Assembly: GCA_016927815.1 (NCBI GenBank)
Contig: JAFGLY010000052.1
Span: 1 to 34,974 of the forward strand
DNA from: Deltaproteobacteria bacterium
GTDB lineage: Bacteria > Myxococcota_A > UBA796 > JAFGLY01
Length of the DNA: 34,974 nucleotides
Reading direction: 5' to 3'
A program made the translations under genes and the position numbers. Below the pieces are notes generated by a model that was not told the origin of the DNA, ran no database searches, and worked only from the letters and a program-made list of their open reading frames with translations. Shown in pieces: positions 7,048-11,112 of this stretch. The first letter of the stretch is position 1. Each line of letters opens with the position of its first letter.

Positions 7048-7737
7048 ATGCGGGTGGTGCTGCTATCCGACGCTCACGTGGACGGCCCGGCCGACCCGGT
7101 CCAGGCCCGGCTGGTGGCCTTCCTGGAGGACGTCCGGGCGGATCGGCTCGTGCTGCTCGGCGATGTCTTCCACCGCTGGTGGGAGATCCGTGGCCGGCCG
7201 TTCCCCGCGTACGAGCCCGTGATCGCTGCGTTGGCAGTCGTGGTCGCGCGGGGGGTGGCCGTGCACGTGGTCATGGGCAACCACGACTTCGCGGCGGCAC
7301 CGAAGCTGGAGGCCCTGCCCGGACTGTGGAGGACCGGCCCCGTCACGGTCGACCTCGACGGCCGGCGGGTCTACCTCGCCCACGGCGACGCCGTGGATCC
7401 CGGGGCCGGGGTGCGATGGCTCGGTCGGGTGATCCGGAGCGCCACGTTCGACCGCCTGCTCCAGGGGGCGGGGCCCGCCGCGGCCTGGCGCCTGCTGGGC
7501 GCCCTGGCGGGTCCGGCGGGCAGGGATCGTGCGCCCCCGCCATCGCTTCTCGCTGCACAGCGATCCTTTGCCGAGGCCCGGATCCGCGAGGGTGCCGACC
7601 TCGTGGTGATGGGCCACCTCCACCGGCCGTGCGTGGAGGCGCTCGGTGGGGGCACGCTCGCCAACCCGGGAACCTTCCGGCACGCGGACAGCCACCTCGT
7701 GTTGGAGGACGGCGTCCCACACCTCGTGCGGGAGTAG
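7048..7737 (+). CDS. lpxH: UDP-2,3-diacylglucosamine pyrophosphatase-like metallophosphoesterase (LpxH family)
   Basis: This is a 229-residue calcineurin-type phosphoesterase. All metal ligands of the LpxH family are recognisable: SDAH (D8, H10), LGDVF (D39), GNHD (N78, H79), HGD (H112) and GHLHRP (H190, H192). LpxH cleaves UDP-2,3-diacylglucosamine to lipid X in lipid A synthesis at the inner membrane. The length is close to the 240-residue E. coli enzyme, and the lid-like insertion around residues 120-175 is present. It sits 2 bp from the convergent MreB-like stop. The broader class 'UDP-2,3-diacylglucosamine diphosphatase or related metallophosphoesterase' is safer if no other lipid A genes lie nearby; none is seen in this window. 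Confidence 0.85.
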   Translation: MRVVLLSDAHVDGPADPVQARLVAFLEDVRADRLVLLGDVFHRWWEIRGRPFPAYEPVIAALAVVVARGVAVHVVMGNHDFAAAPKLEALPGLWRTGPVTVDLDGRRVYLAHGDAVDPGAGVRWLGRVIRSATFDRLLQGAGPAAAWRLLGALAGPAGRDRAPPPSLLAAQRSFAEARIREGADLVVMGHLHRPCVEALGGGTLANPGTFRHADSHLVLEDGVPHLVRE

Positions 7738-7739
7738 GT

Positions 7740-8762
7740 TTAGAAGGCCACGCGACCGAGGACCGACGGCTCCTCGATCGCCGAGGCCGCACCGAGGGCC
7801 ACCGCGTGGAGCGGCTCGGGGGCGCGCACGACCGCGAGCCCCGTGGTCTGGCGCAGCCAGGCGTCGAGCCCCCACAGGAGGGAGCCGCCCCCGGCCACGA
7901 CGAGGCCGGCGTCCACGATGTCCGCCGCGAGTTCGGGCGGGGTCTCGGCCAGGGTCTGGCGCACCGCCTCCGCCAGCTGCCCGAGGACGGGCCCCAACGC
8001 GTCGCGGGCGTCGTCGCTCGTGACCGTGATCTGCCGGGGGATGCCGGCGGCCAGGTCGCGGCCTCGAACAACGAAGGCACGCGGGGAGTCGGGCTCGAGG
8101 GCGCACCCCACCTCGAGCTTGATGGCCTCGGCGGAGAGATCGCCGACCAGGACGTTGTGCGTGCGCTGGAGCCACGCCACCAGCGCCTGGTCCATGGCGT
8201 CCCCGGCGGCGCCCGTGGTGCGGCTGGCTACGACGGCGCCCATGGAGAGCACGGCGGCTTCGGTGGTGCCCGCCCCCACCACGCACAGGAACGTCCCGGA
8301 CGGATCCTCCACCGGGAGCGCTGCTCCGAGGGCCGCGGCCACCGGGCCGTAGACGAGGCGGACCTCCCGCCCGCCCGCGGCGCGGGCGCACTCCCGCGCG
8401 GCCCGCTGCTGCTCCTCGGTCACGCCGAAGGGGACGCAGACCAGGATCCGGGGTCGAACCAGGCTGCGCCGGCCGGCCACGCGTGCGATGAAGAAGCGGA
8501 GCATGGCCTCCGCGACCTCGTAGTCCACGATGACGCCGCCACGAACCGGCCGGACGGCGGTGATGGACTCGGGGGTGCGGCCCAGCATCTCCTTGGCCGT
8601 GGCCCCCACGGCCACGACCTCGCGGTGCGTACCGCGCTGGCGGACCGCCACCACGGAGGGCTCGTCGAGCACCACGCCCCGGCCGGGAATCGCCACCACG
8701 GTGTTGGCAGAGCCGAGATCGATGGCGAGATCGTGCGAGAGGAAGCCGAGGAAGAGACCCAC
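7740..8762 (-). CDS. MreB-like actin-fold protein with altered ATPase residues
   Basis: This is a 340-residue protein from the GTG at 8762, with GGAG seven bases upstream. It is collinear with MreB: phosphate-1 loop LAIDLGSAN (residues 12-20), DEPSVVAV, RPVRGGVIVDYE, connecting parts, and an adenosine-type motif VVAGGGSLLWGLD. Two key sites differ. The family's catalytic I-E-E-P reads V-Y-G-P (about 137-140), and the phosphate-2 D-I-G-G-G-T-T-E reads V-V-G-A-G-T-T-E (161-168), losing the Asp. ATP hydrolysis should therefore be weak or absent. No mreC/mreD follow it, unlike a housekeeping mreB locus, so this is probably a second, specialised MreB paralog. The zinc-ribbon gene lies 16 bp upstream on the same strand and may be co-transcribed. 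Confidence 0.85.
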   Translation of the reverse strand: MGLFLGFLSHDLAIDLGSANTVVAIPGRGVVLDEPSVVAVRQRGTHREVVAVGATAKEMLGRTPESITAVRPVRGGVIVDYEVAEAMLRFFIARVAGRRSLVRPRILVCVPFGVTEEQQRAARECARAAGGREVRLVYGPVAAALGAALPVEDPSGTFLCVVGAGTTEAAVLSMGAVVASRTTGAAGDAMDQALVAWLQRTHNVLVGDLSAEAIKLEVGCALEPDSPRAFVVRGRDLAAGIPRQITVTSDDARDALGPVLGQLAEAVRQTLAETPPELAADIVDAGLVVAGGGSLLWGLDAWLRQTTGLAVVRAPEPLHAVALGAASAIEEPSVLGRVAF

Positions 8763-8778
8763 GAGATGCTCCGGTCCG

Positions 8779-9294
8779 CTACCGGGTCTGCGATTCGATG
8801 GCGGCCTTCTCCCACTCCTTGCTGAACCCCCTGACCTTCCGGTTCTCCTCCAGCGGTTTCCCGATGATGCGGGCGACCTGGATGGCGTACCCGGCGAGGT
8901 TCTCCTCGTCGGAGGCGCTAAGAAGGCGCCGCTCGCCCCCCTCGAGGATGACCGCCACCTCCCACATCGCGCTGCTGCCCCCGATCGTGAAGTCCACCCG
9001 CTCGATGCGATCGAAGGAGACCCGGTCGGCGTCGGTCCCGTCCGCACGCACGGTCGTCCAGACCACGGACTGGGTCTCCTCGTCCACGACGACGTTCTGC
9101 TTCACGGACTGGTGGAACGCGACGTAGTACATCACGCCCGCACCGACGATCGCCATGACGGCGAGCGACACGACCAGGACGACGAAACCGGTGTTTCGCT
9201 TCCTCCCGTCCGTGAACTCGTGGAAGCAGACCTTGCAGCGGGTGGCGACGATCGGAGCTTCTGCGCCGCAAGAAGGGCAGATCTTGGTCTCCAC
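8779..9294 (-). CDS. Zinc-ribbon single-pass membrane protein
   Basis: This is a 171-residue protein. The N-terminus carries a CPSC...CKVC zinc ribbon (C6, C9, C20, C23), followed by a basic patch (GRKRN) and one hydrophobic helix (about residues 36-58). The rest is a small soluble domain with SFDRIERVDFTIG and a charged C-terminus. The topology by the positive-inside rule puts the zinc ribbon in the cytoplasm and the soluble domain outside. I do not recognise a named family. It lies just upstream of the MreB-like gene on the same strand, so a joint role near the membrane cytoskeleton is possible but inferred. Confidence 0.8.
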   Translation of the reverse strand: METKICPSCGAEAPIVATRCKVCFHEFTDGRKRNTGFVVLVVSLAVMAIVGAGVMYYVAFHQSVKQNVVVDEETQSVVWTTVRADGTDADRVSFDRIERVDFTIGGSSAMWEVAVILEGGERRLLSASDEENLAGYAIQVARIIGKPLEENRKVRGFSKEWEKAAIESQTR

Positions 9295-9375: not shown

Positions 9376-11112
9376 GTGACACCCCGGGGAGGGAGGCATA
9401 GGCTGCGCCCGAGCCCTGCCGGGAGGTGTGCCGTCCTCGACACGCTGGCCAGAGCCTTCTCGCTCCTCCTCCTCGCGCCCTTCCGGTTCCTGTCGTGGGC
9501 GTCCGGCGTTCGGCTCGGGCGTCGCGGACTGGTCCGGGTGGACCTGCCCGCCCTCCAGGAGGCCCTGGGATCGAACGAGGCCCTCGACCACCTCGCACGC
9601 GCCCTCGACGCGATGGGTTCGGATCGTCACGTCCGTGGCGTCTGGCTGCGCCTCCGCCACACGCAGGGCAGCCCTGCGCTCCTCCAGGAGGTCGCGGCGG
9701 CCCTGGTCCGGCTCAAGGCCTCCGGGCGACGGGTGCTGGCGGCGCTGGACGAGGCGGAGGACGGGGACCTCCTCCTGGCTGCCCAGGCGGACCGGATCAC
9801 CTGCTCCCCCGCGGGCACGGTGGATGGCCGGGGGGTTGCGATCCGGGGTGTGTACCTCGCCGACGCGTTGGCTCGGCTGGGCGTCCGCGTGGAGGTCCTG
9901 GCCGCGGGCGCGTTCAAGAGCGCCGCCGACCCGCTCGCCCGGGCAACCCCGAGCCCTGCCCATCGCGAGGCCATGGAGGGCCTGGTGGCCGACCTGCAGG
10001 CCCAGTGGACCTCGAGCGTGGCGCAAGGACGTGGGTTGCCCGAGGACCGGATCCGCGTTGCGCTCGATCGGGCGCCGCTCAGCCCCCAGGAAGCCCTGGA
10101 GGCGGGGCTCGTGGACGAGGTGACCTGGCCGGATCAGGACGCCGAGCGGTGGCCGGAACGCCTCGGGTTTCGTCCGAGGCCCATCGACTTCCCCGCCTGG
10201 AACCGTCGCTGGATTCTCGACCGCGCGTGGCGACGCGCCCTCGGGGACGTACGGCCGATCGCGGTGGTGCGGCTCGGCGGCCCCGTGGTGTACCGCGCTC
10301 CCTCCGTAAACGCCCGCCCGTGCATCGCCGCCGACCGTGTGATCCCCTTGCTCGACCGTCTCGCACAGGATCGCCGCGTACGGGGAGTCCTGCTCGTGGT
10401 GGACTCCGGGGGGGGAGGCGTTGGGCCCTCCGAGGCACTCCACCGCGCCGTGACCCGCCTGAGGGAGAGACGGCCGGTGGTGGCCCTGCTCAGAGGGACC
10501 GCGGCGAGCGGCGCCTATGCGCTGTCGCTCCCTGCGCGGACGGTGGCCGCGCCGGGCACGCTCACCGGATCCATCGGCGTCCTGCTGGTGCGCCCACTCG
10601 TGGCCGGTGCGCTCCGGCGTCTCGGCATCCACGCCACCACCTGGAGGGGCGCTCCCCACGCGGACCTCGACGATCCCGCCCGCCCGCTCACCGATCCGGA
10701 GCGGGCCCGGCTGGAGGCCATGGTCCAGCGCTTCTACACGACCTTCGTCGAGCGGGTGGCCCAGGCGCGTCACCTGGCCCTTGCCGACGTGGAGGCCGTG
10801 GCCCAGGGCCGTGTCTGGACCGGCCGACAGGCGATCGAGCGGGGGCTGGTCGATCGACTGGGGGGATTTCCCGAGGCCTTCGCGGACCTCTGCGAGGCCG
10901 CTGGCCTGCCCTCGGGCCGACGGCCCGAACCCCGGTGGGATCTCGCGCCCGGTCGCCCCTCCACCTTGAGGCGCCTGGCCGGCCGGATCCTTCCCGTGCC
11001 GGCGCTGCTGGGTGATCTCACGCGTTGGACGGCGCTGCCGCTGGCCGCATGGGTGCTGAGAGAGGCGGGCCGCCCTCTCGCCCGCGCGCCGTTCGACCTG
11101 GAGGGGGAGTAG
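9376..11112 (+). CDS. sppA: Signal peptide peptidase SppA-like S49 protease (two-domain type)
   Basis: This is a serine protease with a Ser/Lys dyad, of the long (67K) SppA type, with two tandem S49/Clp-fold domains. Numbered from the GTG at 9376, the general-base Lys is K181 in GAFKSAADPL (first domain), and the nucleophile is S378 in AASGAYALS followed by GTLTGSIGVLL (second domain). The spacing of 197 residues matches E. coli SppA. It would degrade membrane-released signal peptides. The start is uncertain. A good GGGAGG stands at 9421-9426, but no ATG/GTG/TTG in this frame follows it closely. The GTG at 9376 is the nearest usable one, and a rare start near 9433 is possible. The recognisable protein begins at LDTLARAFSLLLL. 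Confidence 0.85.
   Translation: MTPRGGRHRLRPSPAGRCAVLDTLARAFSLLLLAPFRFLSWASGVRLGRRGLVRVDLPALQEALGSNEALDHLARALDAMGSDRHVRGVWLRLRHTQGSPALLQEVAAALVRLKASGRRVLAALDEAEDGDLLLAAQADRITCSPAGTVDGRGVAIRGVYLADALARLGVRVEVLAAGAFKSAADPLARATPSPAHREAMEGLVADLQAQWTSSVAQGRGLPEDRIRVALDRAPLSPQEALEAGLVDEVTWPDQDAERWPERLGFRPRPIDFPAWNRRWILDRAWRRALGDVRPIAVVRLGGPVVYRAPSVNARPCIAADRVIPLLDRLAQDRRVRGVLLVVDSGGGGVGPSEALHRAVTRLRERRPVVALLRGTAASGAYALSLPARTVAAPGTLTGSIGVLLVRPLVAGALRRLGIHATTWRGAPHADLDDPARPLTDPERARLEAMVQRFYTTFVERVAQARHLALADVEAVAQGRVWTGRQAIERGLVDRLGGFPEAFADLCEAAGLPSGRRPEPRWDLAPGRPSTLRRLAGRILPVPALLGDLTRWTALPLAAWVLREAGRPLARAPFDLEGE

Follow-up and report, generated by a model that had tools for sequence, protein, structure and literature searches.

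The divergent MreB gene of the window (the whole stretch of DNA that was analysed, 34,974 nucleotides), here called mreB-B, is intact and belongs to a class-specific paralog group. Its protein has lost the glutamate that is catalytic in MreB, as has the second MreB of the same genome, and in all 51 genomes of the host's uncultured order in which both paralogs can be read, this residue is either kept in both or lost from both. This coupling, perfect across genomes and thin in evolutionary events, is suggestive. The purpose of ATP hydrolysis in MreB is unsettled according to PMC9597168 and PMC13310574, and lineages in which the catalytic residue is gone from both paralogs, beside sister families that keep it in both, constitute a natural experiment on MreB hydrolysis.

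The mreB-B gene and its active site

The first-pass annotation had recognised the MreB fold pattern, and both profiles and structure bear this out. The protein scores 372.7 bits against Pfam MreB_Mbl PF06723 (cut-off 27) and 384.3 bits against NCBIfam mreB TIGR00904 (cut-off 365.75). An AF2 model, built on a 6-row alignment, reaches a pLDDT of 86.3, and when it is used as Foldseek query, ranks 1-25 are all MreB or Mbl (4czj: TM 0.88/0.95).

Features of the window discussed in the text, with their positions
Feature	Positions	Strand	Basis or remark
mreB-B, divergent MreB, 340 aa, GTG start	7740..8762	-	profiles, structure model
GGAG, putative ribosome-binding site of mreB-B	8769..8772	-	sequence; 6 nt before the GTG start
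Z: protein with a zinc ribbon (CPSC...CKVC), a predicted TM helix and a beta domain at its C-terminus	8779..9294	-	upstream neighbour of mreB-B, 16 nt away
sppA (S49 signal peptide peptidase), divergent from mreB-B	9538..11112	+	Pfam/NCBIfam; start uncertain
Metallophosphoesterase, convergent with mreB-B	7048..7737	+	Pfam
Gly139 codon, at the catalytic Glu (CcMreB E140)	8346..8348	-	CcMreB alignment, column counts
Val161 codon, at the phosphate-2 Asp (CcMreB D162; ScMreB5 D156, Mg2+-coordinating)	8280..8282	-	alignment; role from PMC9195046
Glu117 codon, at CcMreB V118, inter-protofilament interface	8412..8414	-	alignment, column counts
Gly75 codon, at the conserved Asp of R-D-G; equated with ScMreB5 D70 by residue offset	8538..8540	-	column counts
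First protein of a tandem related pair, 336 aa	15604..16614	+	no NCBIfam family match
Second protein of the tandem pair, 338 aa	16648..17664	+	32% identity to the first over 328 columns, E 5.6e-64

Residues are numbered after Caulobacter MreB (CcMreB), a numbering that we in part assume. E140 and D162 themselves are named in PMC4051119, according to which the attacking water is held in CcMreB by E140 and T167. The ATPase motif E140...T167-x-[D/E]169 is present in 95.8% of non-Spiroplasma MreBs (Takahashi et al., PMC9597168), a figure which implies that a small share of MreBs elsewhere is also without it. In the window protein the motif is broken and reads G..T-x-E; T167 and E169 are retained. 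The strings V-Y-G-P (in L-V-Y-G-P) and V-V-G-A-G (in C-V-V-G-A-G) are present as first annotated, where they had been read as altered forms of the catalytic I-E-E-P and the phosphate-2 D-I-G-G-G. Alignment with CcMreB confirms the loss of the phosphate-2 Asp (D162 to V161) and of the Glu (E140 to G139), but it shifts the position of the latter: of the two Glu in I-E-E-P it is the second that is catalytic, and the Tyr replaces the non-catalytic first one. Beyond these, the Asp of R-D-G has become G75 and V118 has become E117.

The nearest relative, from a genome of the same family f1 (G001), reads H-G-P in the E140 region. Together with many further rows (63 without E140 in total), it rules out a single odd gene or a sequencing error as the source of this loss. 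D162V may be an assembly error, as G001 keeps D162; V118E is common to both f1 genomes, i.e. G001 and the window genome (G000).

In ScMreB5, kobs falls from 0.15 per min to 0.01 in the E134A mutant, 0.08 in D156A and 0.05 in D70A, and the E134A protein still assembles filaments, although their organisation and liposome binding are poorer (PMC9195046). Because the window protein lacks the counterparts of E134, D156 and (by residue offset) D70 together, little or no hydrolysis is expected of it, while it could still assemble, with a lower affinity for membranes. The combined absence of E140 and D162 may even prevent it from binding Mg-nucleotide. CcMreB carrying V118E forms single protofilaments (PMC4051119); by analogy, the same change predicts single protofilaments, or pairing with MreB-A, for the MreB-B of family f1.

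Two paralogs and the distribution of the ATPase motif

A search with the window protein finds matches in 57 of 58 genomes of the order, exactly two of them in 48, so that two MreB paralogs per genome are the rule. Based on up to 17 kb of sequence fetched around nearly all of these matches, the trees split the order's MreBs into a clade B of 52 loci, including the window, and a clade A of 50 loci. When outgroups are added, three B-type rows of family f9 join the order's B clade (SH-aLRT 85) and five A-type rows of f9 join its A clade (SH-aLRT 86), while the rows of f7 and f8 stand separate; in the class outgroups paralog A adjoins mreC. These topologies give moderate support to a duplication that took place close to the base of the class. 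Of the 52 B loci, 38 have an sppA homolog, as do 18 of the 50 A loci, which fits the duplication of a block; homologs of the metallophosphoesterase occur at 18 of 52 B loci and none of 50 A loci. That almost all genomes of the order share this gene arrangement speaks against contamination.

The tree kin of the window protein are MreBs of its own class, in a tree that holds no Spiroplasma row; in the alignment and Foldseek lists the Spiroplasma MreBs rank last among MreBs, which speaks against common ancestry with Spiroplasma MreB3. As to the host, MYXO-CTERM domains, which we take to be a mark of the phylum Myxococcota, score over cut-off 15 times in G000 and not at all in 14 controls, and the class probably belongs to Myxococcota.

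The second MreB of the window genome, mreB-A at C75, reads V-E-Q-P and D-I-G-G-G, i.e. it carries E140Q and keeps D162, T167 and E169. The paralog status proposed for the window gene is thereby confirmed, and its being the sole mreB of the genome is ruled out. The expected companion, a canonical mreB with mreCD, was found only in part: a second mreB exists, but it bears E140Q, and in the nine surrounding ORFs that were scanned Pfam detects neither MreC nor MreD. A genome-wide profile search of G000 also detects no MreC. This leaves no canonical main MreB that the window protein could regulate, as had been suggested for it.

Nor is the loss of catalytic residues peculiar to the window gene. All 30 MreBs read from 25 genomes of the phylum's other classes (30 of the 35 matches, those given loci) have the full motif, with E140, D162, T167 and the acid at 169 all kept. 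It is likewise complete in the A and B rows that keep E140 (28/28 for A and 29/29 for B; 87/87 with the other classes included), and in none of those that lack it (0/32 for A and 0/31 for B, 0/63 in total), zeros that follow from grouping by E140. Not a product of this grouping is the state of T-x-[D/E], which is also broken in 28 of the 32 A and 20 of the 31 B copies without E140. D162 is kept in 32/32 and 25/31 of these copies, respectively, the window protein being one of the six B copies that lack it.

Both paralogs are readable in 51 genomes of the order: E140 is kept in both in 23, lost from both in 28 (G006 and G038 among them), and mixed in none. Both paralogs keep it in 3 of 3 class outgroup genomes, in family f2 (21/21) and in genera g11 and g18 of f5; both have lost it in f1, f3, f4, f6 and genus g6 of f5. 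This count omits genomes with one readable paralog, the fragments G006:C31 and G051:C1136, which lack the catalytic site, G043:C583 (E140R, no paralog assignment) and G039 (no match); the B copy of G038 was assigned by its position behind Z and not by the tree. On a concatenated tree of A and B, from which the catalytic columns were excluded, parsimony places two changes in each paralog, or about three if E140 was never regained. A formal pair test for coupled loss finds two pairs (p 0.5); with only two or three independent events, the coupling falls short of statistical proof.

The replacements are patterned. At E140, R or K occurs in 16/32 and Q in 10/32 of the A copies that lost the residue, and K in 13/31 of such B copies; R at T167 occurs in 13/31 of these B copies. 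In many A copies of f3, f4 and f5-g6, E140 is replaced by R, K, L, H, A or P. Basic residues are often found next to the gamma-phosphate, at E140 (A of f3; B of f4, f5-g6 and most of f6) or at T167 (B of f3). A different altered active site is seen in three Chloroflexota MreBs (L011, L012, L013), which keep E140 and have D162N together with T167I or T167M.

The Z gene and the elongation machinery

The zinc-ribbon membrane neighbour noted in the first-pass annotation turns out to be a conserved partner gene. Z, with two CxxC pairs and a single TM helix that is predicted, lies directly upstream of mreB-B on the same strand at 51 of 52 loci, the exception (L134) stopping at a contig edge, and the arrangement is an apparent operon. 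The gene is present in 57 of 63 genomes of the order and in six of eight other genomes of the class, one of the six being partial; in four of these six (G064, G068, G069, G070) it adjoins an MreB, and in G067 it has no MreB beside it. Among 282 genomes of the phylum, with at most 13 candidates per genome scored, full-length Z was found only in this class; matches outside are confined to positions 1-59 of the 162 in the model, which cover the zinc ribbon and some of the TM segment. We regard Z as a candidate MreB partner family. A single-sequence model (pLDDT 66) has its best Foldseek match, at E 0.013, to a PH-PTB protein, at most a hint at its fold. Z has no HTH or RodZ_C match in Pfam at E up to 1. 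The idea that it replaces RodZ is weakened by RodZ_C matches in 28 of the 34 genomes of the order that were tested, of which 23 score over cut-off; the same test finds none in G000 and 0/16 in genomes from the phylum's other classes. Near Z, at 21 loci of f1 (G001) and f3-f6, tblastn detects a further gene of about 130 aa, gene X (e.g. L045 9042-9440, minus strand), which was not found in the window or at f2 loci and matches no Pfam family over cut-off.

MreC is detected in 3 of 58 genomes of the order (two over cut-off) and in 1 of 5 further ones, compared with 7/8 class outgroups and 25/25 other genomes of the phylum. Of the 58, 55 carry a SEDS gene for wall synthesis, and a cell wall is therefore presumed. 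At least two SEDS matches, some of them fragments, are found in 16/20 genomes of f2 versus 7/38 others. The second SEDS of G000 (at C198; locus L250 4264-7467, minus strand) is a fusion of SEDS glycosyltransferase and penicillin-binding transpeptidase of 1068 aa, and SEDS matches in long frames suggest the same fusion for most f2 genomes.

The genomes that lost the elongasome are not exactly those that lost E140. In G003 and G013, MreC, a PBP2-type transpeptidase and RodA lie beside mreB-A, yet both have Arg at E140, so that the elongasome would go with an MreB-A that apparently lacks the motif; conversely, f2 retains E140 although no MreC was detected in it. The 273-aa gene that follows mreB-A in f3 was considered as MreC and set aside, as its start looks like glycogen synthase.

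Candidate functions and known systems

We favour, at roughly even confidence, a repurposed MreB filament that hydrolyses slowly or not at all, in which B works with A and is perhaps held at the membrane by Z. MreB-B would still fold as an actin and may bind nucleotide, but could neither position the attacking water in the manner of MreB nor fully coordinate Mg2+. Its protofilaments would be long-lived, their assembly no longer timed by hydrolysis; such a static filament, which had also been proposed from the first reading, is what we infer from the lost residues. MreB-A, with an actin-like Gln at E140 in f1, would join it in a hetero-filament, and Z, its zinc ribbon in the cytoplasm, would anchor MreB-B and so make up for the weakened membrane affinity. 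Once the MreC-linked elongation machinery had gone, the pair would serve as a scaffold at the membrane. Several features of the window protein count against this reading: T167 and E169 are kept, V118E predicts that B of f1 does not pair into antiparallel doublets, and Mg-nucleotide binding may have been lost with E140 and D162. So do the mismatch between elongasome loss and E140 loss, the Z of G067 that has no MreB beside it, the small number of independent loss events, and the loosened positions, long branches and Z rates described below. More tentatively, and at somewhat less than even confidence, we propose a presumed walled lineage with a two-subunit MreB cytoskeleton that gave up hydrolysis in both subunits together two or three times independently, has the lineage-specific Z as partner, and forms an actin scaffold without a hydrolysis cycle.

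Rates of divergence link the two paralogs. Identity to f2 references covaries between A and B with rho 0.90 (n=27 non-f2 genomes), compared with 0.56-0.57 for either paralog against PpiD and -0.24 and 0.00 against SppA, which varies little and is of limited use as a control; given PpiD, the partial r is 0.86 (n 26). Since genomes do not count as independent data, the p-values of these correlations cannot be relied on. Z correlates with MreB-B (rho 0.65) no more than with PpiD (0.73), and rates thus give no support for contact between B and Z. The covariation of A and B also fits MreB-B as a pseudo-ATPase that co-polymerises with, caps or spaces an MreB-A whose Gln at E140 still permits hydrolysis. 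Actin Q137 is the water-positioning residue (PMC9597168) and the window genome's MreB-A reads Q..T-x-E with D162 kept; V118E may disfavour B-B doublets, and MreB paralogs of B. subtilis are reported to co-polymerise laterally (title of PMC7641798). This alternative nevertheless appears unlikely, since the residues at E140 in many A copies of f3, f4 and f5-g6 mean that an active, actin-like A partner cannot hold order-wide.

It is similarly doubtful that both genes are relics under relaxed selection, slowly decaying after the elongasome was lost, although several observations would suit it. MreC is undetected in most of the order and multiple SEDS matches concentrate in f2. Lineages without E140 have long branches in the tree, and dN/dS of MreB between close pairs is 0.02-0.32 in their families compared with 0.02-0.08 in f2 (one f6 pair, saturated at synonymous sites, gives no value); this difference and the long branches also fit plain relaxation. 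Of 136 positions fixed across the phylum, copies without E140 keep 67-69% on average versus 92% in copies with it, which indicates a general loosening as well, and near the phosphates G164 (41-65%), T167 (28-35%), D188 (41-58%) and T18 (56-73%) are less strictly kept in the lost sets. Nonetheless, dN/dS is well below 1 and purifying selection on MreB persists in these lineages. None of the listed MreB matches contains a stop, which together with the low dN/dS excludes pseudogenes. Among the residues that we presume, partly by assumption, to touch the nucleotide (including the E212/K215 pair), the P1 Asp, G17, G163, G286 and G291 are invariant among the letters present in both lost sets, and G165, E212, K215 and G292 are kept at 84-97%; Z, moreover, has stayed beside mreB-B. 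That other residues stand in for E140 and sustain an altered hydrolysis is improbable despite the patterned basic and Gln replacements, given that the window protein has Gly at E140, a non-basic T167 and no D162, and that SpeMreB3, in which T167 is Lys, shows hardly any ATPase activity (PMC9597168).

For the slowly or non-hydrolysing filament that we favour, Spiroplasma MreB3 is a precedent of a motif-less MreB: SpeMreB3 forms filaments while its Pi release is too slow to measure (PMC9597168). Like MreB-B, it is an MreB paralog with a broken E..T-x-[D/E] that acts beside other MreBs. The two share only 30-31% identity and differ at the motif positions (D, K, S in SpeMreB3; G, T, E in the window protein); the Spiroplasma host is wall-less and swimming, whereas the host of the window is presumed walled and has both paralogs affected, and SpeMreB3 is not known to have a Z partner. 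Among the best-matching literature we found no case that combines loss in both paralogs, a presumed walled host and a Z partner.

With canonical MreB of Caulobacter and E. coli, the window protein shares the fold, the length, several pocket glycines, the P1 Asp, E212/K215 and a hydrophobic N-terminus, and structural alignment to chains of CcMreB gives 45-48% identity; it differs by E140G, D162V, V118E, the change of R-D-G to R-G-G, the absence of a detected MreC and the link to Z. A co-occurring MreC is usual in rods but does not define an MreB, as Spiroplasma illustrates, and the ATPase motif is likewise common without being a defining trait, given that MreB3 lacks it. RodZ resembles Z by architecture only, as both combine a small domain at the N-terminus with one TM helix and a beta domain at the C-terminus and are found beside MreB; Z differs in its zinc ribbon and in having no HTH or RodZ_C. 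Mbl and MreBH of Bacillus subtilis, finally, are likewise extra MreB paralogs in a walled cell.
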